64,000 bases of DNA from Clytia hemisphaerica (lineage: Eukaryota > Cnidaria > Hydrozoa > Leptothecata > Clytiidae). This document shows positions 1,122-63,100 of this stretch, piece by piece (position 1 is the first letter of the stretch; every line of letters begins with the position of its first letter). The notes below the pieces were generated by a model, which did no database searches, had not been told where the DNA came from, and saw nothing but the letters and a program-made list of their open reading frames with translations. Location: contig CACVBU010000498.1 of the NCBI GenBank assembly GCA_902728285.1, positions 310,001-374,000 on the forward strand, in the 5' to 3' direction. Position numbers and translations under genes: made by a program.

Positions 1122-3278
1122 ATGTTGAGGTTGACACTGGCAATTGTGTTTGTGGCTCTCGCAGCTCAAGCCCAAGGAGAGGAGGTAAGTGCTGTAAACA
1201 CTTTTCTTTTATAAGAACCAGTAAAATTTTGCGGAGGCTGTTCTTATTTTTTCTTGACACTTAGAGTCTCAAATTGTTCTTATCATGTTCTTATATAGAG
1301 TGTAAATGAGATATTTTAGGCTTTAAACCCAATTTTTACTATTTTAACACCTAAATTGCTTGAAATTGAGTAATTTCAGGCTCAAAATTTTTCTAATTTT
1401 GTGGCAATTTTGAGCCTCATTGTTCTCATAAAAAAAGTGTATATTCTATGCGATTTTTTATTAGGAATACGTTTATAAGGAACTTGAGGCAGAAAATAGT
1501 CCGAAAAATAAGAAATTACGAAGGAACTGTTCAGGCTTAGAATAATAAAACAAGTAATTTTTAAGTTACATACTTAGAAAATCCAAACTTAGCAGCTTGG
1601 TAAATAAGGAGCTCGATAAGGAACTTTGAGGCTGAAATTCTCTTGAAAATATAACAAACAGAGCCAAGTTAAAGGTTTCATTTTTACACAAGTGTTCCCG
1701 TTTCATATGAGACACATATTTCATTTCAGGACAATGTTTGCCTATTGTTATATTATGTTGATATAAACAAAAAATGATTTTCTTTTTCCTCTTTGTTACC
1801 AATCTTGCTCCACATCCGTGTCAATTCAATGTGAAAAAGCTTGTGAATTAAAATTGATGAGTATAAGCAAACGATACAACTCTTATTTAAAAACAAGACC
1901 TTAAAGGCCGGACTCCACTTTCGCGCGAAATGGGCGACCGTTTTTTTCTAACCTTTTTTGTCTGAAGAAAAGATCACGTCATAAAAAAGTTTCGCGCGAA
2001 CAAAAAAAAAGTTGAAAGAAGTTTTTTCATCCGTTACGTCAATTTCGACCAATGGAATTGCTTCATTTTCAACCGTCCAATAACCTTACAAAAACGTCAA
2101 AAAAAATAAATAATAATAATATAAAAAATGTGTACATTTACGAGGCTTTCTAAATCAGGATATGGAATGATTGCTCTAAAATAAAAACTTTCTGATGAAC
2201 AGAAGCTAAAATCATATAAAATACCGACTCTATCTAATCATCTACAGTATCTATTGTTTTTTCTTTTTTAGAACGAAAAGTTCCCAAGCTTGAGTCCATC
2301 AGCGTCCTTAAACCCAAGCTGGCGCCCATCGTGGAAACCAAGCTATCGCCCATCGTGGAACCCAAGCTGGCGCCCATCGTGGAAACCAAGCCATCGTCCA
2401 TCGTGGAACCCAAGCTATCGCCCATCGTGGAACCCAAGCTGGCGCCCATCGTGGAAACCAAGCTATCGCCCATCGTGGAACCCAAGCTATCGCCCATCGT
2501 GGAACCCAAGCTATCGCCCCATCGTGGAACCCAAGCTGGCGCCCATCGTGGAAACCAAGCTATCGCCCATCGTGGAACCCAAGCTATCGCCCATCGTGGA
2601 ACCCAAGCTATCGCCCATCGTGGAACCCAAGCTATCGCCCATCGTGGAACCCAAGCTATCGCCCATCGTGGAACCCAAGCTGGCGCCCATCGTGGAAACC
2701 AAGCTATCGCCCATCGTGGAACCCAAGCTATCGCCCATCGTGGAACCCAAGCTGGCGCCCATCGTGGAAACCAAGCTATCGCCCATCGTGGAAACCAAGC
2801 TGGCGCCCGTCGTGGTTCCCAACCTGGCGCCCATCATGGTTTGATGACTCTGAGATAGACACAACAGGACGCCCATCAGGCAGACCAAGTGGACACCCAT
2901 CAGGCCGACCAAGTGGACACCCATCAGGCCGACCAAGTGGACACCCATCAGGCCGACCAAGTGGACACCCATCAGGCCGACCAAGTGGACACCCATCAGG
3001 CCGACCAAGTGGACACCCATCAGGCCGACCCAAGTGGACACCATCAGGCCGACCAAGTGGACACCCATCAGGCCGACCAAGTGGACCCCACCCCATCAGG
3101 CCGACCAAGTGGACACCCATCAGGCCGACCAAGTGGACACATACCAAGTGGACACCCATCCAGGCCGACAAGTGGACACCCATCAGGCCGACCAAGTGGA
3201 CACCCATCGGGCCGACCAAGTGGACACCCATCAGGCCGACCAAGTGGACACCCGTCTGAGCCAAGACCAACCGAATAG
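1122..3278 (+). CDS. Secreted Pro-Ser-Trp/Tyr and Pro-Ser-Gly repeat protein (two exons, frame disrupted twice)
   Basis: Exon 1 (1122-1184) encodes MLRLTLAIVFVALAAQAQG plus two Glu, a clean signal peptide, and ends at a consensus GTAAGT donor in phase 0. Exon 2 (2272-3278) follows a pyrimidine-rich acceptor and reads in frame into PSWRPSWKPSYRPSWNPS-type octads (24-bp DNA unit). After a short acidic linker (FDDSEID) come GRPSGHPS octads, ending at TAG 3276-3278 with an AATAAA 27 bases later. Two indels break the frame: an extra C in the run at 2517-2520 and a +4 change at about 3081-3097. Allowing for both, one Pro-Ser frame runs from signal peptide to stop. Two other pairs of small indels (about 3031/3041 and 3155-3170) cancel. 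The indels may be assembly errors in a repeat or real lesions. The family is not recognised. The composition suggests an extracellular structural, cuticle, mucus or adhesive protein, which is inference. Strand is fixed by the signal peptide and splice sites, because all frames of the repeat are largely open. Confidence 0.72.
1200..1450. mobile_element. Related TTTATAAGAACC repeat (second subfamily)
   Basis: It begins CTTTTCTTTTATAAGAACCA and contains 'GAGGCTGTTCTTA' and 'GAGCCTCATTGTTCTCATAAAAAA'. The same layout recurs at 4190-4440, 20548-20790 and 24272-24478. It occupies the single intron of the secreted repeat-protein gene. Confidence 0.45.
1668..1906. mobile_element. Small inverted-repeat element, copy 1 of a 240-bp family
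   Basis: It matches 30591-30823 along its whole length, for example ACACATATTTCAT..CAGGACA and CCAATCTTGCTCCACAT. Its ends are inverted (TTAAAGGTTTCATTTTTA against AAAACAAGACCTTAAAGG). Confidence 0.65.
2300..2835 (+). repeat. 24-bp coding minisatellite (PSWxPSYR octads)
   Basis: About 22 copies of a 24-bp unit (CCATCGTGGAACCCAAGCTA plus TCGC) with variants AAC/AAA and CTATCG/CTGGCG. The unit is a multiple of three and lacks stops, so several frames on both strands look open. Only the PSW frame connects to a signal peptide. Confidence 0.9.
2868..3255 (+). repeat. 24-bp coding minisatellite (GRPSGHPS octads)
   Basis: About 16 copies of a second 24-bp unit (CGACCAAGTGGACACCCATC plus AGGC), with small indels at 3031, 3041, 3081-3097, 3135 and 3155-3170. 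It encodes RPSGHPSG in the frame that ends the protein naturally. Indels are more frequent here than in the first block. Confidence 0.9.
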
Positions 3279-3304
3279 GCTTTTAAAAATATTTTATTAT
3301 GAAG

Positions 3305-3310
3305 AATAAA
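3305..3310 (+). terminator. PolyA signal AATAAA of the secreted repeat-protein gene
   Basis: AATAAA starts 27 bases after the stop codon, implying a very short 3' UTR. It supports the chosen terminal frame. Confidence 0.55.
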
Positions 3311-18400: not shown

Positions 18401-21400
18401 AGCTCCGAATTCTTCATCCAACAAGTGTGATAAATGTTTGGATAAAATGAACAAAGTACCAACAGGATTCGCTTTCAAAGCGGTGGAAGGCCAGGGAGAT
18501 AAAGAATTCGAATGTCCCATTTGTTTGTGTTTAATCAAAGGAGCAACTGAGCTTCCTTGTGAACATTTGATGTGTGGGGATTGTTTGCTCCACTATGAGA
18601 AAGGACAAACTGAGAAAGCAGAAAAGTAAGTTCAAACATTCTTTTTCTATTTAGAAAATACAGTACTTTAAGGACGATTTTTATTTTCTTAATTTTACCT
18701 TATTGGGCTCTTCCAGAAAAAAGTTGTACACCCCGGGTGGAGGATATATTGTCCGGAGGGTAGCAAAAAATCATCAAAATTTGCCTTGTCCGGGGTGTAA
18801 ATTTGCTCTGTCCGGGGGTAATTTGGTGTGTCCGGGGGGATGCTTGTCCGGGGGAGTAAAACCTATTGTCCAGGGGGCCAGAAGTCACCCTGTCCGGGGG
18901 GTAAATCACTAAAAATTGTTATATCCTTCACCCCCCATGTACAATTTTTTTCTGGAAGAGCCCACTGTATGTTAGGGAAAAAATTACTGCTGATGACCAC
19001 TTCGGTGGACCTGTGTCGCAGGTGATCCTGTTTTCTTCTTGGTACATAAGTCGGTCCAGCAACAAGGGTCGAAACTGAGCTACTTATATGCCCTTACAAT
19101 AATGGTATCGGATTTGTCTTTTATACTTTGTATGTCGGATGGAAATAGTTATTAAGGTGTGTGGCATTGGTTGGATGGGTGTGTACTAAGTGGCAGATTT
19201 TTACACTAAGCTCGCGGCAGTATTCGAATTATTTCTTTTGGACTATTTCCATCATTTGATTTTTACCATTGGTTTTGCCATATGATTTTTTTCCTTGGAT
19301 TGTTTTTGGTAGTTTTTGTTTGGTTCAGCTGTCATACATTTTCTTTAGGAAAAGTGAAATTTGGACTTAATTAAGAGATCTGTATTGTTTTTTTCATGTC
19401 TGGATGTCAAGTTCACCCAGAATAGATTTTTCAAGTTAAAAAAGCTTTCATATTTTCCTCAGATGTCATCAAAACTTTAGTGGAAGATGAAAATAATGAT
19501 AATTTGAAACTTAACTTGGGTTGATAGAAGACACTACACTACTTCAAGTTTTAAAATAAACATTTGCATTTTTGAAACGAACAGCTGATAAGGGACAAAC
19601 TTAGAAAAAAGGTGATACTTAAACCATGAATCTTTCTTTTCAGGGAAGAGCCGAAGAAAAATCCAGAATTTCTTTGCAGTGTATGCATGACACCTTACAA
19701 AGTTCAAGACGTGAGTTATCTATTTCAGTACTTTTTATTGCATGCAGAAGAACTGCTATAAGTCATATAGATTTCGATAAACTCCTCAGAGTCCGGAAAG
19801 GGGTCTGATCCCAAATTCTTAAATGACCCCCTTGGCATCCCCCTAACCTTTAAAAATGCCTTTTGGGCAAGGATTTTGGACAAAAATAGCTAACAAATAT
19901 ATGTGAAATATCTTTAGAGAGAGAAAGCGAAATGATAACCTTATTTTTCTTTTTTGACTCAGACTACTTACATACTCTAACAGAAAACTTTCTTTCATAA
20001 AGACCAATTCATAACAGTGATTGAAAATAATCTACAATATATATGTAAGCCCCCCTTCCTTAAACTATTCCTCCTTCCTTGCTATCCCCCCTGTTTTCAT
20101 GAAAATTTCTGACACCCCTCTTCATTTTTTCGGAAGGTGTCGTCCCCCTTAAGAAAGGGGAGTCGACATCCCCCTTAAGGGGGGACGAACTATGACTCAT
20201 GGGTGTATTTATTTGAAAATTAAAAATACCTACAAAAGGGTCGGCATTCTAGTTGGACGATGTGACGGTAGTTTTCATTTTTTTTTTGTCGGCGTTTGAG
20301 AAAAGTGACGGTATTTCGGTATCAAACTTTTCATGCGTAAAAGAAGAATTTCAGCAATTCTTGACATCGATGTTAAAGGTGATAAGAGTAAGACTTGCTA
20401 TCCACTAAACAAGTTCTTTATTTTCAATTTTTCAGAAAAAGTCGGTAAAGTCCACTGATCGTTTCATACAAAACACGATCAGGGTTCATTGCATGCAAAA
20501 GGATTGTCCGTGGATTGGTTCCATTAAGGATTATGAGGTAAAGTCAGAAACACTCTTTTTTTATTTTATAAGAACCATTCTGTAGAGGCTCGGCTGTTCT
20601 TAAACTCAAAAAACTGTTAGTTAGGGCAAGTTTCAGGGATATTAGGTTTTCTATCTAATTTTGTTCTTCTTTGACCTTTTTTGCTAAAACTTCATTCCAG
20701 GTCATACCAGGCACAGCTTCATTTTTACACTATTCTAATTTCTTGACATTTTTTGAGCCCCTATGTTCTTAATATCATCTATTTTAGGGCTTATCTTATT
20801 AAAGCCTACCCCTTGACCCTGATTGAAAAGGTCGTACTCTCATTCCAAAATCTTTGTGGTATGATTACTAGAACAGTAAACATCAGGGAACGGGAGGTTC
20901 TATCTTAAAAGACCCATGCTATGACACAAACGAATTAAGACTTATCTCCTTTTTATTTTTTAGGTCCACGTTAAGAAATGTGACTATGGCAGAATAAAGT
21001 GCCCATATTTCGAGTTGGGTTGTCTCAATACGGTAAGTTTTCTTTCATCAATAAAAAGAAAATCTTTTCAATGAAAATTCTCCGGAGAAAGATTGTACTT
21101 ATACTATACTCCATGTCTTCTGTATAATTTTCATAAAGAAATTAGAAATTATTTTACATAAAGTGGCCTCCCTGCTAATTTAAACTTCTGTTACTCGAAC
21201 TAATTTTTCTGTCAAGGAGAAACCTTCGTCTTCGTAAATTGCTTTCCATAATTCGAATCTCTGACAAATTAGATTCTTTGTTGAGTTTGAAATAGCGAAA
21301 GTGAATTGTATAAAGAACACAGGATTTGAATAAGTTGTTTTCACTTCAATTTGTCCAGGTTTTATCATGCTCGTCAGCTCTTATAAATTCTGTTTGTTTT

Positions 21401-24400: not shown

Positions 24401-27400
24401 CTCAAATAGTCAAAATGAAGAAAAAGAACAGTCGAGAACAACTGAAATTTACTGGTTCTTATAAAATAAAGAGAATGTATGCTGATTTAGGTTTATATCC
24501 TTTCTCTTTTCCAACAGAGAAAGGTTTAGATTTATAGTTTTTTTTATAATCTCATTTCAAGCTTATGTACTTTTTTTTTTGAAACACCCTGCATTTTTAA
24601 AATTTTTCTAGTCTTTTCATTATTTTTCAAGCGTAGTGATTTTCGTTCACACTCACACTCTGTATGAAAGTGAAAAACATTTGTCTGTACCGGACGGGTA
24701 GAACTTTTTTTCTTGAAACCGTTCCATCTGTAAATTTTCACATAAACCGTTATTGACCAAAAAAGTGATCAAAAAGAAATCGCGTAGTGGGCTAGAGATA
24801 GGTGGGAGAAGTATCCATTTTAACAATGATTTAGGAGAAATTTCAATGGTGATTCATCTTTTAGAATTACCTTATTTTATCTTCGTGATTTTTATTCCTT
24901 ATGAGAGGGCGGCACTTAATCAGTGTACAATTTTATCTAATAAAAATTATTGTCTTTTTTTCGTAGTTTATAACTCATGTAATAATACTAATGATTTGAA
25001 AAACTCATTACATTCTTTCTCTATTTATTTATTGTCCCTAAACGTTTTCTTTTATAACAACATCCAAATTTTTGGAGCCTTCAGATATTCTTAGTTTTTT
25101 GAGTTTTTAGTCTAAAAATGTTCTTCACATGTTCTTATTTTTGTGAGTACTTTAGTCCATTTTCCTTAGAAATAGGATATTTTAGAGTCCCCAAAGCCTT
25201 AAAATGTGTTCTTAACTTGTTCTTATATTTTTGGCCATTGTAGCCTCCCTCAACCATTTTCGTAGAATTGATCTATTTCTGTTGTAAGTGTTGACACAAC
25301 ACAAAAATCTATCAACTTAGACTGACTTAGACAAAAACATCTTTATAAGTATAAAATACCTTTATTTTCATTTTCCTTTCTCATTTTCATCATTGCATTC
25401 AGATTTGGTCCCTTTGATTTCTAAAAGATAGACAACAAAATGGTCAATAATTATAAACTAAATAATGTAGATTTAACTTGGAGGTTAAGGTGACTCATAC
25501 ATAGCTTACATAAAAGGTGGTCATAGCCTTTTGACGATGCTAAAAAGTTAGGAAGTTTTAGTAAGGTGATGTCGTTTAAAAAAGAATAACTGACGTGAAA
25601 AGTTATAGACATCTTATATGAAACACTACTAAAAACCCATTGAACTTGAAAAAGACACGGTAAGAGGTCGAAATATCGTTAAAAGAAAAATGTGTTATGT
25701 TTTATTTCTATATAAAACACTAGATGGAGCTTCTTCGTCCATAGTTGAAGCAAAATATTAAAGCCAAGGAAAATTTGATTTCTGTTTTCCTGATAATATA
25801 TCATAAAAAGAAGTCCTAGTTTAATTCAGAAGGTTTTACAGCAGGAAAACGAATAAATGACTGATTAGAATTATGAGAATTTTCATACGAATGAATTTCA
25901 CAAATTGAGAAAACTTATTCAGACCTATGGAGACAGAAAACGTATGCAGACCTGTGCAGACAAAAAACGTATGCAGACCTGTGCAGACAAAAAACGTATA
26001 CAGACAGACAAAAAACGTATGACTGTGCGACAAAAAACTATGCAGACCTGTGCAGAAAAAAACGTATGCAGACCTGTGCAGAAAACAAAAAAGTTGCAGA
26101 ACCTGAGGAGACAGAAAACGTATGCAGACCTGTATGCAGACCTGTGCAGACAAAACAACGTATGCAGACCTGTGCAGACAAAAAAACGTGTATGCAGACC
26201 TGTGGAGACAAAAAACGTATGCAGACATGTGGAGACAAAAAACGTATGCAGACCTGTGGAGACAAAAAACGTATGCAGACCTGTGCAGACAAAAAACGTA
26301 TGCAGACCTGTGGAGTCAAAAAACGTATGCAGACCTGTGGAGACAAAAAACGTATGCAGACCTGAGGAGACAAAAAACGTATACAGACCTGTGGCGACAA
26401 AAAACGTATGCAGACCTGTGCAGACAAAAAACGTATGCAGACCTGTGGAGACAAAAAACGTATGCAGACCTGTGGAGACAAAAAAACGTATGCAGACCTG
26501 TGCAGACAAAAAAATGCAGACGTGGAGAACAAAAAACGTATGCAGACCTGTGCAGACAAAAAACGTATGCAGACCTGTGCAGACAAAAAACGTATGCAGA
26601 ACTGTGGAGACAAAAAACGTATGCAGACCTGTGCAGACAAAAAACGTATGCAGACCTGTGCAGACAAAAAACGTATGCAGACCTGTGGAGACAAAAAACG
26701 TATGCAGACCTGTGGAGACAAAAAACGTATGCAGACCTGTGGAGACAAAAAACGTATGCAGACCTGAGGAGACGTAAAACAGAAAGTTCTTACTCTTTCG
26801 CTCTCCAAGTCATCAGTATCTGTGTCAGCCCATGATTCTGTATTCCCAAGTTCTTCAGAGTGACTGAGAAATTGAAATTTAGTATTAAAAGAAGAGACAA
26901 AGAAATCTCTCAAATGAATAATTACTAGATGGTATGAAATATTTTGGCCTACAGAAAACTTCTGCGGTCCTGACTAAAACTTTCGAGTATTTACCAAAGT
27001 CGAGATATCACAATCCGCGATTTCTAATAATGGGTTTTTACACAGTTCTTAAGTTAAATTTTATTGTTTTCTTACTAAAAAGTCAACTTGAATATCTCTA
27101 TTTTGGAAAATAGTTAGGGAAAAATATTTTGAGGTTTTTGCTCAAGGCCCGGTTGTTCAAAAAATCGATTAGATTAAATCCCGATTAGCGCTAATCGCGA
27201 TTAAATTTCGATTAGTTAACCGCGGGGATTAACTTCCGTTCCACTTTTGAACAACCGGGCCCAGGACAATCGAAGGAATCCACAGTCCACGTATCTGATT
27301 ATCCTTATAAGTAACTTTTTGTCATTTTTGTCATGCTTGACCCATAAAATGTTTGCACAAGACTGCCCTCGATACCATTCGAATAATTTCAAGCACGATT

Positions 27401-30400: not shown

Positions 30401-33351
30401 ATCTCTTCTTATTCAAAAAGTGAGTTAAATCCTTACCAGACCCTTTCTAAGAACCCTTCATAGTTGTATAGTTAACTTAGTTTCAAGAGAGCAAGAAGTT
30501 GAAGTTGAAATATTATCTTCAAAATTTCACTAATAATCTAAAAAACCTAAGTAAAAGAGTAAGAAAAAATTATTGACCCAAAATATTAGTTAAAGGTTTT
30601 GTTTTTACATAAGTGTTCCTGTTTCATTACAGACACATATTTCATATCAGGACAGAGTCTTGTTATTGTTATATCATGCTGATATAAGCAAATAACTGTT
30701 TTTCTTTTTCTCTAAATTCTAACCAATCTTGCTCCACATTTGTGTCAAACAAATAAGAAAAAGCTTGTGAATTAGAATTGATGAATAAGCAAACGATAGC
30801 ACTCTTATTTAGAAACAAAACCTTTAAGACGTCTTAAAGACGGACACTTATTAAATATAACTTACCTTTTTTGGTTGTCTATTGGATTGACTTGTACATA
30901 TTCTGATATCAAGAACTCTGTGAATGGCATATGTCCCAATGCACATGCTAAATGTAGTGGAGTCACCTGATTCTAAAAAAGAAAGGTGAACAAACATTGT
31001 CAAAATATGAAGATGTAAAGGTCAGTCTAAATGATTAACAAAATACAACTGTTCACTTTTCACCAAGCCTGTCACTCAAGTTGGATTGTCTACTGTGGAA
31101 GGGGTATAGCCTTGGATGTTCCACTGAGGTCCAAAAATGGACCATGTCTGGGACCCATTCTTTGAACAATTTTATTAAAATTTATGAAAAAATGATCTTG
31201 AATGGGACTAAAATTCCGAATTTTTCTCAAAATTTTCTACTTTCTTCCCAAAGTTTCTAAAAGATACCCTATGAGGGACTGGCTTTTCTATTTTGAACTG
31301 GTGGAGGTGAAAATTTGTACTCTGACCAGTGACAGAGCCTGTACCCCTTTGGCCAAGTACCCCTCCCCGGAGATCGTATTTATACCTCTGGATAACACTC
31401 AACACTATGTAACCTAAGTGAGTTAAATAAAATACCATCCATACCATATCCTTGGCATCCAATTTAGCATCTCTGTTAGCTAGCATCTGTCCAATATCTG
31501 CATTCCCACTTGCTGCTGAGATATGCAAAGCTGTCATATGATTTGCATCATAAATATTCGTTTCGGCACCAGCACGTAGCAAAATGTCTACAATTTGTAA
31601 GGAATTGGTCTCACATGCCTGTACAAATGAAAACAAAGTGGGCATTTCAAGTTAATTAAGAATCGCTAGGAAGAATAATGGGCTTTTCCAGAAATAGTGC
31701 GTGCCCCCAACATGTTGAGGATATTGGATATCCAGGGGGTTAACAATTTTTGTTCAAAAGTGGATATCCAGGGGGTTAAATATCTACAAGGGAGCGGATA
31801 TCCACGGGGTAAAGTGTCTTTTCAAGTAAAAAATACGATATCCAGGGGTAAGCATCTTTATAAGAGAGGATATCCAGGGGGTTGAGCATATTTTTAAGAG
31901 TGGATATCCAGGGGGTTTAATACTTCAAAAAATCAATATCCTCAACAGTGGGGTAAATTTTTTTTCTGGAAAGTCCAATCTTTAAAGTGATTATTCAAAG
32001 TTATTAGGTGATGGTAAAATCCTCAATCACAACAAAATACAATTTGGATTTCCAGGGTTCCATTGTAGACTATCTGTAAGAATTTCAAACTTATAATGAA
32101 GAAACAACAAAAATACCATTCAAATAAATCTTTGAGGATTTCCAGAAATCATTGTCATGATTTGATTCAAATTCAAATTAATTACACATTTTTTTATAAG
32201 ACATATATAAGAACATAAGGCTTCGATGACCAAAATGTTAAGAACAAGTTAGGAACATTTTTAAAGGCTTCACAGACTCGAAAACAGCCAATTTCTTAGG
32301 AAAATGAGTCAAAATGGTCACAAGAAAAATAAGAATATTTTAAGAACATTTATTAAAATCCAAAAAGCTAAGAACAACCGGAAGCCAAGCTTCAAAAATT
32401 TTTGGATGTTCTAATAAAAAAAACGTGTCATATTTTAATTTGAAGCATTGAGAACAGTTGAGAATAATACACGGTTATTACCTTCATTAAGGGTGTTTTA
32501 CCCTCTGAATCACTTTTATTGGTGTTAGCTCCATTTCCTATCAAATATTCTACCACAGGCTTAAAACCTTTGGCACATGCTAAATGCAATGCAGTCCTAA
32601 AATACGGAAATAGACAAGGGATGTTTTAATATATCTGTAGTCAACCCAATCAAAAAGACATAAAGATGATTTTAAAATTATTGCTTGGAATTCAGGTAAA
32701 ACACAAAGACTGGGATGGAATTAGAAACTAGGGATATTAAAATTAAATCTTGTATATCTCATAGTTTTTCTTTTTGTTTGGAAGAGAGTGCTGATTCTCA
32801 AAACTGTAGCTATGGTAATATATGTTGCTTTCCAACAGTTAACTTTCGTTATATGTTATAATTTGAAACCATTTCTCAAGTTCAAAAATCTAACGAATTA
32901 TCAAGGGATATATCACTTGCTTATTTTTAAAACTTAAATCCAAATAATAAAAGTTTGGATTGGTGAGAGTACACTGTAGGTATCAAATAATAATTTCTCA
33001 GAGAAAAGTGAAAAAGTAGTCAAATCGGTAGTAGTGAAAGTATACTGATGTACATCCCAAGAAAAAGAAAATTTGTTACCTCTGTTCTTTATCGGTCTCA
33101 TCAAAGTTTGTTTTCTTGTTGGTTAGCTGCTTTAATTTCGATACATCCCCTTGCCATGCTGCTTTGAGGAATTTGGGAAGGTCCTTTTCTTTGAGTATAT
33201 AACCGAGACTATCAGTTGATCCAGCAAGGTTTAACTGGCTGCCTTTACTACTTGCTCGGCTGAGATTTCCAGTGGATGAGTGATAGTTTGATCCCTTTTT
33301 ATCAGGATTAGATTTTTTCTTTCCTTTTAGAAAATTTTTCAGACTTGCCAT
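6476..33351 (-). CDS. ANKRD26: ANKRD26-like ankyrin-repeat protein, 5' part, 20 exons, 3' end missing
   Basis: Exons in transcript order: 33080-33351 (ATG at 33351), 32482-32596, 31445-31618, 30866-30972, 29900-30037, 28506-28711, 27720-27750, 26794-26863, 25360-25420, 15900-16039, 14876-15092, 14498-14626, 14255-14362, 13288-13442, 10519-10588, 9931-10020, 9341-9468, 8340-8438, 6960-7056, 6476-6673. All junctions are phase-consistent, giving 868 codons, still open. Residues 1-55 are basic and Ser-rich. About 58-270 form six ankyrin repeats (TALHLACAKG, TPLMKACETN, TALHISAASG, TPLHLACALG, TPLMTACIEG). About 270-868 are acidic, Ser/Pro-rich and disordered, with recurring Trp-acidic motifs (ESWADTD, DESVWDSE, SEWDSESL, EDKWDST). 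A basic segment preceding five to six ankyrin repeats, with WDSE motifs after them, fits ANKRD26, whose C-terminal half is coiled coil. That half is not seen, so the gene probably runs off the left edge. The exon 15 donor (GTCAGG) is weak. A RING/TRAF gene sits antisense in intron 9. Confidence 0.8.
6795..6935. repeat. CGCGAAAATTA-type repeat fragment in an intron
   Basis: It contains ATTAATTTTCGTGCG and GCGCGCGAAAATTAGAAAAG in opposite orientations, resembling the borders of the TTTCGCG elements at 8473 and 36697. It is probably a decayed MITE. Confidence 0.3.
7329..7470. mobile_element. 140-bp MITE with ACCGGTCAT inverted ends
   Basis: The left end AATACAATCATGACCGGTTT and right end AACCGGTCATTATTGTATTA are inverted copies. 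Inside them GGGCTGTACTGAAAATATTG pairs with CAATATTTCTCAGTGCAGCC. Non-coding, in the intron between exons 18 and 19 of the ankyrin gene. Confidence 0.7.
8473..8723. mobile_element. 250-bp MITE with TACCTTGAGAGAAC ends
   Basis: TACCTTGAGAGAACTAATT at the left is inverted in AATAAGTTCTCTTAAGGTA at the right, and the interior is rich in 'ACTAATTTTCG'. A related fragment lies at 14805-14862. It sits 35 bases upstream (in transcript sense) of exon 18 of the ankyrin gene. Confidence 0.65.
8946..9360. repeat. Three tandem 163-181-bp copies spanning an exon 3' end and its splice donor
   Basis: GGTTCGACATGTT starts at 8946, about 9109 and 9290. Each is followed by a copy of the last 20 or so bases of exon 17 (CTCTTCACTGGGAGCTTTAG on the plus strand) with a usable donor. 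Only the third copy belongs to the complete exon (9341-9468). The other two are decayed fragments downstream in the intron. Confidence 0.75.
10607..10846 (-). repeat. tRNA-derived SINE, copy 1
   Basis: On the minus strand it begins near GTAGCATAAAGGTAGAGCAT (A box) and has GTGGGTTCGATCAC (B box). The shared body contains 'TACTTGATGCCTCTCTGCTTGATGCTCAGCA' in parts, and the tail ends GTGGTCGCAAACTTA. Homologous copies lie at 13785-14010 and 59565-59819. Confidence 0.8.
11011..11301. mobile_element. 290-bp MITE with TTGTTGGTTTGCCGTCACCC ends
   Basis: TTGTTGGTTTGCCGTCACCC at 11021 is inverted in GGGTGACGGCAAACCAACAA near 11269-11288. Interior copies of CCGACCGACC lie next to each end. The outer GGCTGG/AAGCCC bases also pair. 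Non-coding, in an ankyrin-gene intron. Confidence 0.8.
11977..13020. mobile_element. piggyBac-like non-autonomous element flanked by TTAA
   Basis: TTAA (11977-11980) is followed by CCTTTAGACGCCG, and the other end is CGGTGTCTAAAGG followed by TTAA (13017-13020). A TTAA target duplication plus short CCTTT-type inverted ends is diagnostic of the piggyBac superfamily. A subterminal tandem GCCGAGAGACGTACCACGTA lies at the left end, and a GC-rich palindrome (GCAGCGCGCGCTG) near the right. No transposase is readable; the longest ORF (12636-12821, 61 codons) is not recognisable. Confidence 0.8.
13785..14010 (-). repeat. tRNA-derived SINE, copy 2
   Basis: Same family as 10607-10846 and 59565-59819, including the internal CTGAGCATCAAGCAGAGAGG block and the AAGTAAGTTTGCGACCGCAG tail. 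The tRNA-like head (near 13950-14005) is degenerate. Confidence 0.75.
15126..15240. mobile_element. 115-bp inverted-repeat element (TTCACACG..TGTTCC)
   Basis: TTCACACGGTATTGTTCC at the left is inverted in GGAACAGCAGCGTGTGAA at the right. Similar words (GTATTGTTCCAAAACG, GTGTGAACG) appear at 63850-63900. Confidence 0.45.
15846..15880. repeat. (ATTC)n microsatellite
   Basis: About eight perfect TCAT/ATTC tetranucleotides, beginning about 20 bases past the donor of ankyrin-gene exon 10 (15900-16039). Confidence 0.9.
16095..16290. repeat. Tandem ATCCGGCCGTCGGAA words, about 21-bp spacing
   Basis: About nine imperfect copies of a GC-rich word (TCATCCGGCCGTCGGAA and variants such as GTCCGGCCGGCGGAA) stand out from AT-rich surroundings. 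They follow a poly-G run at 16071. No inverted-repeat border was found. Confidence 0.7.
16640..17340. repeat. Dispersed repeat, copy 1 (partner at 34490-35040)
   Basis: It shares AGTGATTCTTATAGATAAA, CCTACTTTCATGCAAAAAAT and TTTATAGGACCTCCACC with 34490-35040 in the same order, so it is a longer interspersed element. No coding capacity is recognisable. A shorter relative containing CTGCTTCAGCCATCTTT lies near 29650. Confidence 0.5.
17698..17852. mobile_element. 150-bp MITE with GGAGTTTTTACAAG ends
   Basis: GACAAGCTGGAGTTTTTACA is inverted in TGTAAAAACTCCGGCTCATC. A relative with CTTGTAAAAACTCCATCTCG lies at 60590-60685 in the last-but-one intron stretch of the kinase gene. Confidence 0.65.
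17860..18055. mobile_element. Copy of the TTCTTATAAAAA inverted-repeat family
   Basis: It carries the family hallmarks AAGCCTAAAAATGTTCTTAA, TTTTGTGAGTATTTTTG and ATTGAAGCCTCGTGTTC, ending in TTTATAAAAAAGTGTA. It ends 240 bases upstream of the start codon of the TRAF-like gene. Confidence 0.6.
18294..22432 (+). CDS. RING / TRAF-type zinc-finger / coiled-coil protein (TRAF-like, no MATH domain), 5 exons, 532 aa
   Basis: Exons 18294-18625, 19644-19710, 20436-20537, 20964-21032, 21404-22432; all junctions are GT-AG and in phase (TAA at 22430-22432). Residues 29-48 hold two CxxC pairs (CSIC..CDKC), a probable zinc ribbon. A C3HC4 RING spans 74-125 (CPIC, CEH, CGDC, CSVC) with a long loop split by intron 1. 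Two TRAF-type fingers follow: C152/C157/H169/C173 and C180/C187/H199 with a final His. Residues about 205-300 are a charged coiled coil. The last 220 residues (SWYERLVQFTL..LNVAVVLPSY..) show no MATH/TRAF-C signature that I recognise. The RING suggests an E3 ubiquitin ligase, and RING plus TRAF fingers and coiled coil suggest a trimeric signalling adaptor; both are inference from family architecture. The gene lies wholly inside intron 9 of the ankyrin gene, on the opposite strand. The first in-frame ATG after an AT-rich leader is taken as the start. Confidence 0.85.
18705..18963. mobile_element. GGGCTCTTCCAG element A, filled with TGTCCGGGGG words
   Basis: The perfect inverted ends GGGCTCTTCCAGAAAAAA / TTTTTTCTGGAAGAGCCC enclose a subterminal GTACACCCC..GAGGATATA / TATATCCTTCACCCC pair. 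The interior carries seven TGTCCGGGGG-type words (18750, 18787, 18809, 18829, 18845, 18867, 18891), each usually followed by GTAA. It lies in intron 1 of the TRAF-like gene. The same architecture is seen at 31680 and 61011. Confidence 0.85.
20548..20790. mobile_element. TTTTATAAGAACCA repeat, second-subfamily copy
   Basis: It contains TTTTATAAGAACCATTCT, GAGGCTCGGCTGTTCTTA and GAGCCCCTATGTTCTTA as in the copies near 1200 and 4190. It occupies an intron of the TRAF-like gene. Confidence 0.4.
22433..22438 (+). terminator. PolyA signal AATAAA of the TRAF-like gene
   Basis: AATAAA directly abuts the TAA stop codon, so the 3' UTR must be extremely short if this site is used. No other AATAAA is obvious within the next 60 bases. 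Confidence 0.5.
22439..23325. other. Intronic sequence without a gene
   Basis: This part of ankyrin-gene intron 9 shows no gene. It holds a 20-bp palindrome (TAGGTAGGAAATCCTACCTA) at about 22557-22576 and a GC-richer stretch at 22990-23180. Confidence 0.5.
23326..23617. repeat. Array of CCACCCGGTAACCAATCCGG words
   Basis: About six copies of TTTCCACCCGGTAACCAATC plus CGGTGA, spaced by two alternative linkers (GATATGATATTATGATATGA or GAATCCGTTTATGCGGTGTT). It is a higher-order minisatellite. ORFs across it, such as 23275-23463 on the minus strand, are artefacts. Confidence 0.8.
24272..24478. mobile_element. TTTTTTATAAGAACGATG repeat, inverted-ended copy
   Basis: It begins ACACTTTTTTATAAGAACGA and ends ACTGGTTCTTATAAAATAAA, giving imperfect inverted ends, with GAGAACA-type words between. 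It belongs to the TTATAAGAAC family. Confidence 0.5.
25045..25265. mobile_element. Copy of the TTCTTATAAAAA inverted-repeat family
   Basis: It contains TTTTATAACAACATCCAAAT, GTCTAAAAATGTTCTTCACA, TGTGAGTACTTTAGTCCATT and GGCCATTGTAGCC. It lies about 95 bases downstream (in transcript sense) of ankyrin-gene exon 9, and the 3' end of the small ORF at 24753-25094 runs into it. Confidence 0.6.
25920..26772. repeat. 27-bp minisatellite, about 30 copies, abutting an exon
   Basis: The tandem unit is CAGACCTGTGCAGACAAAAA plus ACGTATG, alternating GTGCAGAC and GTGGAGAC. Because 27 is divisible by three, long Cys-rich or Lys-rich ORFs appear in five frames; none has a start, splice or codon signal. 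The array ends about 20 bases from the splice donor of ankyrin-gene exon 8 (26794-26863). Confidence 0.95.
27146..27261. mobile_element. 115-bp MITE with GCCCGGTTGTTCAAAA ends
   Basis: GGCCCGGTTGTTCAAAA and TTTTGAACAACCGGGCC are perfect inverted ends. The interior is built of ATTAGCGCTAATCGCGATTA-type palindromic words. Confidence 0.85.
27430..27608. mobile_element. 180-bp near-perfect palindrome
   Basis: About 75-bp arms: TAGATCTTATCGGAGTTTT and GCGATGCATTGTGGGATTGT at the left recur inverted at 27541-27608, around a short loop with GAATTCCTTCGAGGAATTCC. It is a foldback element in the intron between ankyrin-gene exons 7 and 8. Confidence 0.85.
28030..28265 (+). repeat. tRNA-derived SINE, second family
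   Basis: GTGGGTTCGATCCCCGG is a perfect pol III B box. It is followed by a body (GATTGGAGCTCGCTTGGAGA, TCTCCACCTCAGCACTTGAT) unlike the SINEs at 10607 and 59565, and ends in TTACTCACTCACT. The A box region is degenerate. Confidence 0.6.
30591..30823. mobile_element. Small inverted-repeat element, copy 2 of the 240-bp family
   Basis: TTAAAGGTTTTGTTTTTA and AAACAAAACCTTTAA are inverted ends. The body matches 1668-1906. It is in the intron 5' of ankyrin-gene exon 5. Confidence 0.7.
31680..31976. mobile_element. GGGCTTTTCCAG element B, filled with GGATATCCAGGGGG words
   Basis: The ends GGGCTTTTCCAGAAA and TTTTTTCTGGAAAGTCC pair apart from small mismatches, and the subterminal GTTGAGGATATT pairs with AATATCCTCAAC. 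The interior has six GGATATCCAGGGGGTT-type words (31726, 31761, 31796, 31837, 31868, 31901). It lies about 60 bases upstream (in transcript sense) of ankyrin-gene exon 3. Architecture as in elements A and C, but with a different word. Confidence 0.85.
32190..32440. mobile_element. Copy of the TTCTTATAAAAA family, opposite orientation
   Basis: It begins ACACATTTTTTTATAAGACA and ends GGATGTTCTAATAAAAAAAA plus CGTGTCA. These imperfect inverted ends define the family's borders. GGCTTCGATGACCAAAATGT is the inverse of the word found in other copies. Confidence 0.65.
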
Positions 33352-39840: not shown

Positions 39841-40128
39841 ACAAGCTTTTACACACCAGGTTAGCCCTGGACTATTGAGGTATAAAATTATTTCATTACT
39901 TCCCTATCAAGCCAACGTTTCAGTCATTATCATATATCTAAAGGGTCCTGTGGCTGGTCACCCAGGCATTTTGCTAAATCCTGAGGAGCAGCTGCGCATG
40001 ACAGGAATTTGGGTTCCCATGTGCAGCTGATCAGGTATCTATTATCCTGTTGTCTTCCTGTACGATCCACTTGAAACCTATCTTTAATACATTCGAGCGT
40101 CTCAAGTTAAGTTTTCTCAATCTCTGAT

Positions 40129-40881
40129 TTGTACATCATCATGTCACTGAATCAACGTTCGGGCGCTGTGCCAAGTAGTGTTGTTTCAGAAAATGTGATT
40201 GAAACCTGGAAGAGAGCTCTTGCTGGTCTTGTGGAAAATGCTCCTACTGACGTTATCAAAAATTGCTTACGGATGTACAACCCTGAACTTCCAACCAAAG
40301 ACAACATCAAAGCACTTAAATCATGTCGCAAATCTCCAATCATTGAAACCCTTGACTATCTCACAACCTCTTCATCATCATTACCATCTAACAACCTTAA
40401 CAAGGATGATGCAATCCACCTATTATGTTTGAAGATCAAAAATTTTTTCCCAGATGTATGCCAGATTTGTCAAGAATCATATTCATGCAAACTCAATGAC
40501 AAACCACTCATTAGCTGTGGTGCGTGTGGTCAGGAAGTGCACCGACCATGCTATCTTAAACTTCTGATGAGCATGAATCTTTTGAATGAACATGAGAAAT
40601 TATGTAATCTCATCTTTAAAATCCCTGGATTTTGTTATCTATGCCCGGCATGTCAAGACGAAAACATAAATTTTACTCACAAAAATGAAACAGATGAAGT
40701 AAAACAAGCTCAAATAACAAATTCACCTACGCAGATCACTGAAGCTGTTGAAGCCACTGAATCTTTCTTAAATGGAACCCAACCCACTCCAAGAAGGACA
40801 CTCCCTCACATTCCAATCACCCCAGATATTATTATCGACAGACCCTCGAATAAGATAGTTGGATGGAATATACCTGGGTAG
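40129..40881 (+). CDS. Retrotransposon ORF1, N-terminal part with PHD-like zinc finger
   Basis: 250 codons. An N-terminal helical region (about 15-110) precedes a Cys-rich block at about 112-177 (CQIC, CGAC, VHRPC, CYLCPAC) that fits a PHD/RING-like cross-brace finger, as found in ORF1 of some CR1/L2 elements. It ends in WNIPG-stop at 40881, overlapping the next frame (40859-41299) by 23 bases. The reading continues sensibly one frame over (GRTNFLKSKF), so this stop reflects a frame change rather than the natural end. Proposed role: RNA/DNA-binding chaperone of the element's ribonucleoprotein. ATG at 40129 lies close to a second ATG at 40141, and either may be used. Confidence 0.75.
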   Translation: MYIIMSLNQRSGAVPSSVVSENVIETWKRALAGLVENAPTDVIKNCLRMYNPELPTKDNIKALKSCRKSPIIETLDYLTTSSSSLPSNNLNKDDAIHLLCLKIKNFFPDVCQICQESYSCKLNDKPLISCGACGQEVHRPCYLKLLMSMNLLNEHEKLCNLIFKIPGFCYLCPACQDENINFTHKNETDEVKQAQITNSPTQITEAVEATESFLNGTQPTPRRTLPHIPITPDIIIDRPSNKIVGWNIPG

Positions 40882-41299
40882 GACTAATTTCCTAAAATCT
40901 AAATTTCAACGCGAATTACAAAACGACGCAACCTTATCTTCAGATAATACTACAACCTTATCTTCGGATAATACTACAACCAAAGAAAAAGTCTCTGATG
41001 AAACTCCAGTTTGTAACTTTTACAAGAAAGGAAAATGTAAATATGGCATCAAAGGCAAAGATTGCCGATTCAAGCATCCAAAAATCTGTACCAAGTTACT
41101 GAGACATGGTAATAAATCCCCAAAAGGCTGTAATGCTGGCACAAAATGCAACATGTTTCATCCACGTATGTGTTCTTCATCGATCAGAAAAGGTGAATGT
41201 TTTAACACAAATTGCACTTTTACTCATGTCAAGGGGACTAAAAGGGACCCAGTACTAAAAAAAACCATACAAACACACAACAATCATTGGATTTTCTGA
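40859..41299 (+). CDS. Retrotransposon ORF1, middle part with three CCCH zinc fingers
   Basis: Entered by a +1 frame change from the preceding ORF. It carries three CCCH fingers in tandem: CNFYKKGKCKYG..CRFKH, CTKLLRHG..CNAGTKCNMFH and CSSSIRKGECFNTNCTFTH, preceded by a duplicated TTTLSSDNTTT. Such fingers usually bind RNA, which fits an ORF1 role. The frame ends at TGA 41297-41299 while a third frame (from 41287) takes over. The first in-frame ATG (40859) is probably not a real start. Confidence 0.7.
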   Translation: MDGIYLGRTNFLKSKFQRELQNDATLSSDNTTTLSSDNTTTKEKVSDETPVCNFYKKGKCKYGIKGKDCRFKHPKICTKLLRHGNKSPKGCNAGTKCNMFHPRMCSSSIRKGECFNTNCTFTHVKGTKRDPVLKKTIQTHNNHWIF

Positions 41300-41487
41300 A
41301 AATCTTAGACAATTTTCGGACAGAAATGATATCAATGATCACTACCAATCTGAATGTACGAAATATTCAGCAACCATCTCAAACTGTACATCAGAAATAC
41401 CCACACCAATTTCACCCCCGTCTTCAGGACTATCCACTCAACCAAAGCAATTTTTACCACAACAAACAAGAGATACCACATCAATGA
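41287..41487 (+). CDS. Retrotransposon ORF1, C-terminal tail overlapping ORF2 by ATGA
   Basis: A polar, Gln/His/Asn-rich 66-codon tail (LDNFRTEMISMITTNL...). It returns to the frame of the first ORF1 segment, so the two frame changes (at about 40870 and 41290) compensate. Its TGA (41485-41487) overlaps the ORF2 ATG (41484-41486) as ATGA, an arrangement that allows termination-reinitiation of translation. Confidence 0.6.
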   Translation: MDFLKILDNFRTEMISMITTNLNVRNIQQPSQTVHQKYPHQFHPRLQDYPLNQSNFYHNKQEIPHQ

Positions 41488-44400
41488 ATACTTTTTCTTT
41501 TATGAATATTCAGGGTTTATGTCACCAGACCACTCAATCATCAGTTCCTCTACTAGAATCAATTCTTCATTCTGAGAACCACATTTTTATGGGCCTAACC
41601 GAGACATGGCTATCATCTTCGCACAAGAAAGCAGAGCTTGAAATTGAGGGATACGAGCTTTTTCGCAAGGATAGAAATCGCATCAAATCCAAATATGGAA
41701 GACATAGCGGAGGTGTCGCATTTTATCTTCGAAGCGACGTATCTCCAATGTTTGAGCCAATACTTGAATTTTCAAATGGTGTCAATGAAGCTCTACTACT
41801 TCATTCAAAAAACCTTAACCTTATTCTTGGTGTCATTTATAGACAGCCAACAAATATTCTGCACAAATCAGCGGCTCCGGAATTCTTGGACCTTATTTCA
41901 GCAATGCAGGACATCATCGAATCAATCGAAGGAAATACCCCCGATATTTATCTATGTGGTGATTTCAATATACCCCACACCATAAAAAATGACTCTTACA
42001 TACCATCAATTAGTTGCAACAAACAACTTCTAGATGTTTTAAACAATTTTACTTCAATTTTAAACTTGAACCAGATGATCCATAAGCCTACTCATTCTAA
42101 TGGCAATATATTAGACTTCTTACTGACTAATAACTCTGATTCAATCTTCAACTACCTATGCACACCAACTGCTCTCTCAGATCACTTCATCATTGATGTT
42201 ACAAGCCATCTGAACTTTTCTATGACTGAAAACAACTATAGTAATAACAATAATAAAAATTTAATCAGTGCTTTTGATAGTTTTAACTTCTATTATGATC
42301 AAATTAATTGGGCTATCATCAATGAAAACTTCAAAGACACTGACTGGCACAATATTTTGAACCCACTTGATTCAGACCCTGACGCCCAATATGATGCTTT
42401 TATTAAACAATGCATATTCATTATATCTTCAAATAATGTACCTCCAAAAATATTTTCATCCAAGAAGAAACGCAAGCCAAGAGACAGGCGGATTTTAATG
42501 CGAAAAAGAAAGAAACTGAGAAAAAGATTTCAAAATCTTAAAACTACAGAAAAACTTGTTGAAATTGAAGTGCTACTTCAAAAATCCTTTGCTCAAGAGA
42601 GGAAACTGAAACAGAAAGAAGCTGAAGCAACCTCTAAAATCAAATCCAATCCAAAATTCTTCTACTCGTACGCTAATCGCTTCTCGAAATCTAAACCAAA
42701 AGTTGGACCCTTAATCGATCCAGACACTAACAAATTGACTAATGATCCCCTTTTGATGGCCAATATCCTACAAAACCAATACAAGTCTGTCTTCACCCAA
42801 CCTCTTCAAAACTACGACCTTCATCCGCTTGAGTCACAAATACCAACACTTGAAGATATCAATCTGACTATCGAGGAATTTGTCAAAGAAATCGGTACAC
42901 TGTCACCAACTTCAGCACCTGGACCTGATGGTTTTCCAGCTATTCTTCTTCTGAAAACTAAAGATAACATTGCTCTACCACTTTCAATCATCTGGAGAAA
43001 CATACTTAACAAAGGAATCACTCCAAAACTTTTAAAAACTGGACATATATCCCCAGTTTACAAGAAAGGGAATCAGGGACTTGCTGAAAACTATAGACCC
43101 GTTGCCCTCACATCCCACGTTTCAAAGGTCTTTGAAAAGATTGTACGAGCCAAGATACAGAATCATCTAGAAGAAAACAATCTGTATAACAATAATCAAC
43201 ATGGCTTTAGGAAAGGCCGCTCATGTCTTAGTCAATTGCTTCAACACACCGAAAGACTGATCCATTACCTAGAGAATGGAAACAACATTGACGTTATCTA
43301 TTTAGACTTCAGTAAAGCTTTTGATAGAGTAGACCATACCATTTTGTTACACAAGCTTCAGAAAAATGGCATAAACGGTAAACTCCTTGAATGGATCAAA
43401 TCCTTTTTGACTCATCGAACACAGAGAGTTTCAGTAAACTCAACCTTGTCCTCAGAAACAGATGTTATTTCAGGTGTGCCGCAAGGATCTGTGCTGGGAC
43501 CGCTATTGTTCCTGATCATGATTCAAGATATCGATAACAACATCCTTCATTCTATTTTGGCATCGTTTGCTGACGACACTCGTTTGATGAAAGAAATATC
43601 CAAACTGGAGGATGTTTATCATCTACAAAATGATCTAGACACTGTCTACAAGTGGACAGAAGACAACAACATGCAGCTGAATGGTCTTAAATTTGAGCAC
43701 CTTGCCTATGGGAAAAACGACGCTCTGAAGCAAAGTTCTCGCTATTTTACCGACACAGCAACGTTGATCGAAAATAAAGACGAAGTTAAAGACCTTGGAG
43801 TCACCCTAGACACTCAGTTGACTTATGAGAAACATATCCAAGAACAAATCAAAAAAGTGAAAAATATAAGTGCATGGATATACCGCACATTTAAATCAAG
43901 GGAAATTGAAACCATGTTAACTTTATGGAAAGCACTAGCCATCCCTCATTTGGACTACTGCTCTCAACTCTGGTCTCCCTGGAAGCGTGGTCTTGTCCAG
44001 CAACTGGAAGAAGTTCAAAAATCATTTTTACATGGAATTCCATCCCTCAGACATCTCAATTATTGGGAAAAACTCAAATCATTAAAACTGTATAGCCTTG
44101 AAAGACGGAGAGAGCGGTATCAAATAATTTATACCTGGAACGTCATTGAAGGCAACGTCCCGAATTTTGATTATGACGAAAGTAAAGGAGGCATTTCCTG
44201 CCATATAAATCAGAGATTGGGGAGAATTTGCAATCTAAAAGCTGTCAATATCAAACACAAAAATATCTGGAGGGGAAGTCTTTCCCAAGAAGGCCCTCGA
44301 TTATTCAACACCCTTCCCAGACCAATAAGAGATTTGACAAACTGCCCCAAAGAAGTATTCAAAAAACACTTAGACACCTTCCTCACAACTGTTCCGGACG

Positions 44401-60100: not shown

Positions 60101-63100
60101 ATTGTTGTATCAAATGGTCCTTATGATTTGAATTTTGCACCCGGTGATTTCATTACTTCGATCAAAATGCTTAGGTAAGAAAATGAATTCTTTTCTTTTT
60201 TGACTTTGCTGGAATCTGCTGTCATCCAGTTGCTCTGTTAATTACCACTGATTAAGGCCAGCAATATCGTAAGAGCTAAACCTATTAAATTCAAACCCCC
60301 TCCCTGTGTTTAAAATGAATGAAAAAGTGACAGAAAACCCATACTTAGAAAGCTTAAACATGAATGTCTTTTTGATATTGCCATTTTGAGAAATCACAGC
60401 TGTATATACAATTATCTATTTCATTTTCACATACCATTAAAACTGTATTTCAAAATTGTTTTTGTAAAGCTAATTGGAAAATGAGTTGTTTTCAAAATTT
60501 CTATTATCACTTTTTCTTATACACGTTGCAGATGAGATGGATTTTTTATAAGATACTTTGATAATTGCTCATTAAGTAATAAAAATGACGCGTTCTTTAG
60601 AAAAAGTAAAAAATTGTTTTATTACTGGTTAACGACCAACCAAATCAAATAAGAGCTTGTAAAAACTCCATCTCGTCCCACACGTTGAAATGCTTACGAA
60701 ATTGTAACACTATACGTCATAAAGGAAAATAAGGTTATAAAAAGGATTTACATGGGGAGATAGGTAGAATATTTTATTAGCGTTTTTTGCTTTGTTGAAC
60801 TTGACAGGGATCAAGAGTGGTGGCTTGGTCAACACGAGAATACCTTACAGTTCGGTAGATTCCGTTTGGAGCAAACAAAAACAGTTTCATACACAATTCC
60901 TTATTCTTTGAACGAAAGTCAAGAGGAAGAACAAAGAATCATGGCACCCAAAGGTTTAGAAAATAAGGAAAATCTTTTATATGGTAAGTGAAGTTTGTAA
61001 TTCTTGCATTGGGCTTTTCCAGAAAAAAATCGTGCACCCCCTGTTGAGGAGGTCCATTTCCTTTCCAAGGGGGTAAGGTTTGAAATGAAGTGGAATTCCA
61101 TAAGGGTAGACGAAAATCCGTCAAAAATAAGCGGAATTCCAAGGGGTGATGATTGAAAATTTGTAAAAATTTGGAATTCCAGAGGGTTATGATCCTAAAA
61201 TTGCCTGTAATTCCAAGGGGGTAGGTCACAAAAGGTTGGACCTCCTCAACAGGGGGTGCACGGTTTTTTTCTGGAAAAGCCCATTTTTATTCTAGAATGA
61301 TATTAAAACGAGACGTGGACCACCAGCTGTTCTTCTAAATAAACTTTTAGAACATATTCAACCATTTCTTATCTTTTCAATATGGAATCGCTGGAAAAAA
61401 CACAGATTTGATAAAGATGTTCAAGTGAAAAATCTCTGATAACCTGGTGAAGAAGTAGTTACACGAGACTTTTTTTCTCTGCACTTTTCATTCTTTACTA
61501 ACAGTTTTTATTGATGTAATTTCAGGACAACAATGGTCTGTTCTTTTAGAATCACACCAACAGCATCAATCACCAGCATATCAACACAAAGAGGTCAGCT
61601 ACGTTAACCTGGATGCACCACCTTTGCAACCCATAGCAACAACAAGTGTAAACAAAGATGGCGGCCAAGCTGCGATGTTGAAACCTGAGAATAAAAGTTT
61701 GACGGACCTTAAACAACAATTTAGATCGAGGCCTCATTCAGCTGAGGTTGTTTCGATGCGAGAAGATTTCTTCGATCTAACAACGAACAATCTGAAATCT
61801 GGCTCTGATTCAAACCTCGGATTCAAAGACACAAATCCTGAAGTCCAAGACACAGTAAATGACCGAATAACTAAAAACATGACAGCATTTTTATCTTTCA
61901 CGAACCCTTTATCAAGCGAAGATGTTAGTCTACAATCAGGACTGTTGAATCCAGTCAACGTTTCTAATCCACCAACTTCTGCTCGTCAAAATAGAAATTG
62001 GAGCAGTATTGATCCATTATCGAGTACCAAGGCAGCATCCTGTGAGAATCTGTACGAAGAAATCGACAATGAACAATATCGAAGTGGTCGAAATACACAA
62101 ACTTTGCGTCCTAGACCTAAAGCTAACCTACCAATTCCTCAAGAAACGAATGCAGCTTATCGTAAAACTAGCTTAGACGCTTACGCACAATCTATTAGAA
62201 AAGACTTTGATCTACTTTCACAACAACTGGGGCCTAGGCGTGAGACAGCTTCATGTGACAACCTACCCGAAAGTATCAGTTCACTGAATGTGTCTGTGAA
62301 CGACGTCAAAAATTATCCGTCCGTGCAAAACACTCAATATCTTCAACGGTTTGGGAGTGTCATACCTGTTAGCCAAGTTAATCAAAATATGTTTCCGCCC
62401 CAGCAAGCAAACACTAGGTTGGTAGGCCCGTCCCACCAGCCGCCTCAACAGCCGCCCACAACGGGTAATTTAACGGCTGAAAAGTCACCAGACTATTTTA
62501 AAAACTTCTTAGCAGACCAAAAAACCATGAATCATTTTACATATGATCCAAAGGCGAAACCAAAACAGACTCCCTCTCCGCCCTCGGCGAAAGAAAAATT
62601 ACGGCAAAATGCTACGAATTTTACCGATAACCAATGGGACTTGTTTGAAGATTGTGTTAAAGGCTCGAAAAAAGTGGATAAGGACCGTAAAAAGTCACAA
62701 GGGAAACGCATTAGTTGGCCTAAGAATAACAGCGGTGGCTTGGTCGACATTACTCATGAAGAAACTGAGGACCAGAAAGGTGAATTTAGTGAGAAATTCA
62801 AAACTATCAGATCTATATTACCCGATGCTTCAGTTGGTGAATGCTTGGAAGGTTTGAGAAGCTCTGGGAATGATGTCAATAGAGCTGTTCGATACATTCA
62901 GATCCTCAAGTTATATCGGTTCAATTATGGTTATTCATTTGAAGATTGTGAAAAACTTTTGGAGAAGAATGGGTTCGATTTTAAGAAAGCAGAATGCGAG
63001 CTGAAGACTTGTCATGTTTGTGGTAAATTTCAATCGCTGGATCGTACCCAAGTTCAGGATACTTTAAGTTTCTGCCAATGGGATGTGACTTTGACTTTGA

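Follow-up and report, generated by a model that had tools for sequence, protein, structure and literature searches.

Short inverted-repeat elements of Clytia hemisphaerica with common ends and family-private arrays of a repeated word

Three elements of the window and their common end

Three short inverted-repeat elements, A, B, and C, lie in the window, the whole 64,000-nucleotide stretch of DNA analysed here, which is part of contig C346 in the searched assembly (417 Mb, 951 contigs). Their coordinates are given in Table 1. As described in an earlier note on this DNA, they are 259-297 bp long, share an outer end and a subterminal block of the CACCCC/GAGGA type, and each carries a word of its own in five to seven copies: seven in A, six in B, and five in C. 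The note was right that the outer end is shared and needs correction as to its form. The left end common to A, B, and C is GGGCTYTTCCAGAAA, after which B continues with TAG and not AAA, and 15 nt are strictly common to all. Six of the A words are TGTCCG and one is TGTCCA, and the six B words all read GATATCC. Four of the five C words were found by pattern, including one degenerate (TTTCCAAGGGGG) and one TAATTCC. The fifth (61092-61106) was missed by the pattern and read by eye.

Table 1. Coordinates of the three elements, their target-site copies, and their word arrays in the window
Feature	Position	Strand	Remark
Left target-site copy ATT of A	18702..18704	.	right flank 18964-18966 is ACT, one mismatch
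Element A, 259-bp MITE, family A, subfamily A2	18705..18963	+	inverted arms ~45 nt, 87% complementary
Left TIR and subterminal block of A	18705..18749	+	
Right TIR and subterminal block of A	18919..18963	-	
TGTCC array of A, n=7, unit ~20-21 bp	18750..18901	+	
TGTCC word starts in A	18750, 18787, 18809, 18829, 18845, 18867, 18891		18867 is CCA
Left target-site copy AAT of B	31677..31679	.	right copy AAT at 31977-31979
Element B, 297-bp MITE, family B	31680..31976	+	right end degenerate (GGACTTTCC)
Array of GATATCCA words in B, n=6, unit ~34 bp	31726..31915	+	
GATATCCA word starts in B	31726, 31762, 31796, 31837, 31868, 31902		
Left target-site copy ATT of C	61008..61010	.	right copy ATT at 61283-61285
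Element C, 272-bp MITE, family C	61011..61282	+	
Word array of C	61062..61221	+	words at 61062 (degenerate), 61092 (by eye), 61133, 61173, 61208

Other features were seen in the window. A non-LTR retrotransposon is located at 40111-44492; its ORF has endonuclease and reverse transcriptase domains, and the ORF preceding it has a zinc-finger match below the Pfam cut-off. Long inverted repeats are found at 50113-50985 (arms of 297 nt at 99%) and at 57558-58171 (175 nt at 89% and 126 nt at 97%). Two long stretches of tandem repeats (2234-3309 and 25869-26777) are open in several frames. Shortly past element C, an open stretch (61459-63324) has a UBA-like domain and is perhaps a host-gene exon.

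The exact end is found 2,250 times in forward and 2,256 times in reverse orientation, giving 4,506 genome copies, and its reversed control 0 + 0 times. Another 282 + 307 ends genome-wide have A or G as the sixth base, with 2 and 1 for the controls. In viral contigs, 83 stretches have the exact end; the 80 listed have one end each, and these matches are taken as chance. Among the papers listed by a literature search on the end sequence, none is about transposons, judged by title, and the titles and abstract openings listed gave no description of these elements.

Families, target-site duplications, and the search for a transposase

The first 100 listed ends (in contig order) together with the window gave 58 paired elements; single-ended, nested, and unpaired ends are excluded from the counts on these 58. 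The size is 205-331 bp in 51 of them, and the rest measure 64, 125, 168, 169, 192, 460, and 567 bp. Being short, predicted non-coding, fairly uniform in size, and present in many copies, with TIRs and target-site duplications (TSDs), they have the features of MITEs. By their word, 40 belong to family A (TGTCC), 11 to B (GATATC), and 6 to C (AATTCC), and one is unclassed. Family A comprises 14 elements of subfamily A1, 11 of A2 (element A of the window among them), 14 of A3, and the outlier L007, which is excluded from the founder contrasts.

The strict class word is present in 55 of the 58 elements and absent in three (L003, L010, and L087). The check proposed in the earlier note, whether words form discrete and unmixed classes, came out in its favour, as none of these 55 mixes classes or strands. 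A looser count finds a single TGTCC in one B element (L079). Among neighbouring words genome-wide, B follows B 989 times and A is followed by B 11 times, in that order only. Some of these 11 pairs may be mutated B words, since a single transition turns GATATCC into GATGTCC, which contains TGTCC.

Within one family, the interiors align in register, like those of usual MITE copies. Across A1-A3, B, C, and a fourth family, D, about 45 bp of the ends align and the first word stands in the same place, the remainder aligning poorly. Since interiors align in register within families and poorly between them, elements A, B, and C each represent a different family in the window, and the word is private to the family, not to the copy. 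This takes away the contrast that the note drew with ordinary MITEs, whose copies share their interiors: interiors are common within each family here as well. The note's idea was to fall if interiors aligned as simple divergent relatives, which they do within families; between families it is mainly the ends that align.

Family D, first seen in L073, has the word AAAATCCAGGG and an end that is mostly GGGCTATTCC. Its copies come from a separate search with one D element as seed, in which 40 of 538 first-look candidates were scored, giving at least 61 matched pieces; 14 of the 20 loci fetched have both ends. The D consensus was made from 12 copies shorter than 310 bp and the B consensus from 7 of the 11 elements (250-350 bp). 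Ends reading GGGCTRTTCCAGAAA are paired only 200-235 bp apart (e.g., C12:49245-49447 and C63:123906-124138), shorter than the D elements read, and perhaps represent more families. At L061, the interior behind the end is a different one and has repeated GAACAGAT words; it may be that of a further family or of a nested element. L024 (C8:426887-427776) has two near-identical B elements, separated by about 280 bp and both flanked by AAA, which may stem from a local duplication.

The flanking three bases are identical in 45 of the 58 elements: ATT in 23, AAT in 17, AAA in 3, AAC in 1, and CTT in 1. The pairing used for this count was ungapped, and the B end, taken one base late, had its TSD scored as unequal. 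AWT thus makes up 40 of the 45 identical TSDs, while ATT and AAT together are 6.4% of the window triplets. PIF/Harbinger proper has TWA or TNA as TSD. As TNA is found in none of the 45, the elements are not assigned to PIF/Harbinger proper. The AWT preference and the GG at the start of the TIR (GGGCTNTTCCAGAAA) fit instead the Pangu group of PHIS, for which the excerpt of PMC4482050 gives ANT TSDs, TIRs usually starting AG or GG, and a TIR length of 11-40 bp. The 40 ANT TSDs found here have only A or T as the middle base, and the arms of A (45 nt at 87%) and C (47 nt with one flanking base included, 98% complementary) are longer than the length given for Pangu. Most autonomous Pangu candidates have a second ORF, which in one place of that paper is said to have no known motif; in another place, Pangu is counted among the groups that have a Myb/SANT protein (PMC4482050). 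Unlike here, interior word arrays are not mentioned for Pangu in this excerpt, and no transposase is linked to the elements here.

Looking for transposases with matching ends, as the note had suggested, brought no partner to light in the flanks scanned. A genome search for DDE_Tnp_4 gave 486 first-look candidates, of which 150 were scored and 152 matches listed; about 1.5 kb on each side of the best 30 of these 152 was scanned for the end with up to three mismatches and for the words. Near these best 30 of the 152 listed matches, neither a convincing end nor an autonomous element or a transposase carrying such ends came up; L091 and L120 have three-mismatch matches only. A-like words in L092 and L115 are part of a different element and not of an autonomous partner. 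An unrelated MITE-like element, with ends near CTACTCTCGGGTACC / GGTACCCGAGAGTA and its own repeated G-run word AATNAGCGGGGGGTTGGAATAA, was seen in L051 (about 130-400) and in the flanks of L092 and L115, and one copy of it lies within a B element. The 1.85-kb pair L018/L019 belongs to a B MITE carrying an insertion, not to an autonomous element, and no transposase-sized ORF was seen there (the longest is 109 aa in a 6-kb stretch). The C-end pattern with a different continuation is found at nine places genome-wide, including the known C MITE in L062, and none of the nine is less than 25 kb from a listed DDE_Tnp_4 match.

Word arrays and the base-6 difference

TRF finds tandem arrays in the consensus sequences of A2 (21 bp x4.1), B (34 bp x5.5), and D (31 bp x2.5), only a 10-bp x1.9 row in that of C, and no array in that of A1. 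On single window copies, it reports 20 bp x3.0 for A, 34 bp x2.4 for B, and no array for C. Spacers of one consensus are more alike than in shuffles in all five tested (A1, A2, B, C, and D): the observed likeness was reached by 2 of 500 shuffles for A1 and by 0 of 500 for A2, B, C, and D. The number of units varies from copy to copy, the D copies L218 and L212 having 7.5 and 8.7. With units inside the element and in variable number, these are MITEs that carry tandem repeats, C being without a TRF call. Divergence of these tandem units accounts for the uneven spacing of the words. In the simplest reading, the private word of each family arose by each founder multiplying its own unit.

The arrays could be hitchhiking minisatellites, produced by slippage of a G-run unit in each founder and without binding function, their words looking conserved as the core of a recent repeat. 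We consider this rather unlikely. The arrays do consist of tandem units, and frog and bivalve MITEs are known to contain tandem repeats, as the excerpts of PMC9659126 and PMC8268682 state for Xmix/Xstir, miDNA4, and bivalve elements. The fate of words and spacers bears on this account. In the majority of founder contrasts, though not in every one, the word has changed less than the spacers, as counted with patterns that require the word core and so are biased towards conserved words. Between the A1a and A1b founders, 1 of 46 word sites and 18 of 78 spacer sites differ, the single word difference coming from a TGTTTG stretch that the pattern also caught; between C1 and C2, the numbers are 2 of 43 and 30 of 99. 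These groups were chosen by eye and comprise 12 of the 14 A1 elements (without L039 and L077) and all six of C. A1b and A2 differ at 7 of 42 word sites, all seven of them base 6, and at 30 of 81 spacer sites. Over the seven slots that A1 and A2 share, TGTCC differs at 0 of 35 sites and the spacers at 29 of 80. There is no difference between words (4/42) and spacers (13/82, p 0.42) in the A2/A3 contrast, where slots 2 and 3 of A3 read TGTTT.

In A1a, C1, and C2 copies, words have decayed less than spacers; A1b and A2 copies show no difference, and in A3 the decay of the words is slightly greater. The pooled decay (130 of 2,209 word sites, 486 of 4,828 spacer sites) mixes subfamilies and is less clean. 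Minisatellites would account for the A2 and A3 copies, which decay without sparing their words, and for the A2/A3 founders without word conservation. They do not account well for A1 and A2, which have kept the same seven slots and an unchanged TGTCC with diverged spacers, and the C1/C2 and A1a/A1b contrasts agree, with words kept and spacers lost.

According to the earlier note, the word changes in a coordinated way within each copy. Coordinated change is found between subfamilies: in 7 of the 7 slots shared by A1 and A2, base 6 reads A in the former and G in the latter. The order of the slots is the best A1/A2 spacer match among 720 permutations, although slots 2 and 6 alone match poorly. In the alignment of A1a and A2, six base-6 differences are found at masked sites, and slot 4 falls in a gap. 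Of the 79 words in A1 copies, 78 have A as base 6 (64 CCA before the G-run, 9 CCAT, 3 CCAA, 1 CCAC, and 1 TTCA); the other word has CCT, and neither CCG nor CTG occurs. The 49 words of A2 copies comprise 40 of CCG type, 6 CCA, 2 CTG, and 1 TTCG, and the 51 words of the more decayed A3 copies comprise 26 of CCG type, 8 of CCA type, 4 CTG, and 13 others. Within elements of family A, the same-type value is 0.79, compared with 0.50 in 2,000 shuffles (max 0.66; 139 words), a figure that mirrors the split into subfamilies and is no test within each of them. Neighbour pairs genome-wide, which overlap and are not independent, number 1,666 CCA-CCA, 1,331 CCG-CCG, 346 CCA-CCG, and 279 CCG-CCA, so that 625 of 3,622 (17%) are mixed against about 1,796 expected (odds ratio 23).

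Methylation-driven CpG decay of TCCGGGG to TCCAGGGG, with no part for selection or conversion, is an improbable cause of the A1/A2 difference. The change is exactly CpG to CpA, and such decay is seen in the CCA and CTG words that stand beside the CCG type in A2 copies. It is also in line with the mixed neighbours genome-wide and with the left-end CpG of A1a and A2, which is CA in A1b. However, CTG would be expected about equally often, and A1 has none; some other CpGs survive in A1, at the left end of A1a and in the spacers of A1a and A1b. Since the words of B, C, and D also have CCA, CCG is likely the derived state. CpG decay accounts for some of the mixing in A2 and A3 and not for A1's absence of CTG. 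Short-tract gene conversion that homogenised the words in an active lineage, with no protein driving it, agrees with seven slots differing together among spacers that are slot-specific as a set, and with the near-identical units of expanded D copies, but is the least probable account, as tracts of about 6-10 bp would be needed at each slot with the neighbouring spacers spared.

Interpretation and known systems

The elements are real and more than chance, and in part they are ordinary MITE families with internal tandem repeats. What remains surprising is the half-conserved word and the base switch in seven slots. Two explanations had been offered in the note, binding-site arrays co-evolving with different transposases and concerted homogenisation of the words. 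Of the two, binding-site arrays remain the better guess. Amplification of units is seen in D, and re-amplification alone is insufficient for A1 and A2, because their spacers, taken as a set, have kept their slot-by-slot correspondence.

The reading that we favour, with middling confidence, is that of sister MITE families whose private words were multiplied in tandem and are putative binding sites for an element-encoded protein, the elements being mobilised in the Pangu manner. As the ends can be aligned, the sister families, which number at least four (A with A1-A3, B, C, and D), would go back to a common ancestor that had these ends and carried a word beside the left one. In each family, a founding event would have multiplied the word and its spacer in tandem to about five to seven units, the private array. 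As long as families were active, the word would mostly have been kept while the spacers drifted, as between A1a and A1b, A1 and A2 outside base 6, and C1 and C2, but not between A2 and A3. The common TIR would be read by the catalytic transposase, and an element-encoded protein, either transposase or accessory, may assemble on the words of the interior. In the word, TCC(A)GGGG is the putative common contact, and the variable 5' half with base 6 would be the family-specific one; having different words, the families would use diverged binding proteins. TSDs and ends point to cut-and-paste into AWT, probably by a transposase of the PHIS/Pangu type. More tentatively, a lineage might switch its binding code, the ends being kept and the words changing together, so as to record a change of specificity in the putative protein and possibly gain a methylatable CpG at each site; we regard this as possible and doubtful. 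Further candidate functions are those of a CTCF-like insulator (the words contain CCAGGGGG) and of a G-quadruplex.

Joint change of a transposase and its sites, with function maintained throughout, can rarely be observed. Here, one genome has thousands of copies of sister families with shared ends, a differing word, and one base difference at seven sites. Should the words be binding sites, these short non-coding elements would preserve in nature a ready record of how site and protein co-evolve. If they are not, the elements are a clear case of tandem arrays arising and staying homogeneous inside MITEs.

Coral CMITEs also have an unusual interior, which their authors think may matter for transposition. 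As given in the excerpt of PMC2872659, their interiors are conserved, their TIRs vary, and the TSD is TTAA, which is the reverse of the pattern described here. The CMITE interior word has 0 matches within the window at up to three mismatches. In Xmix/Xstir, miDNA4, and the bivalve elements, arrays are likewise born inside a MITE and the repeats are family- or lineage-specific, according to the part of PMC9659126 used. In contrast to these, the units here are strongly diverged, the word is kept, and sister families share their ends.

Plant CACTA elements (En/Spm, Tam1, and Tgm) have a conserved TIR and subterminal repeats that are family-specific even within one species, the assumed binding partner of these repeats being a second, diverged TNPA-like protein (excerpt of PMC2613891). 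The elements described here are like them in conserved TIRs, 3-bp TSDs, and a short motif in many copies, private to each family and partly similar between families. Their ends, in contrast, read GGGCTNTTCC, with GGGCT and not CACTA in the TIR, and where CACTA elements have TNPA-like binding proteins, the protein that would bind the words here is putative. The words also run in one orientation along a short, predicted non-coding element, on a single strand through the whole interior and unlike both subterminal regions of CACTA, which counts against their reading as a binding array. By analogy, the elements look like a short counterpart of CACTA, in which common ends would serve the catalytic protein and a private array the second one.
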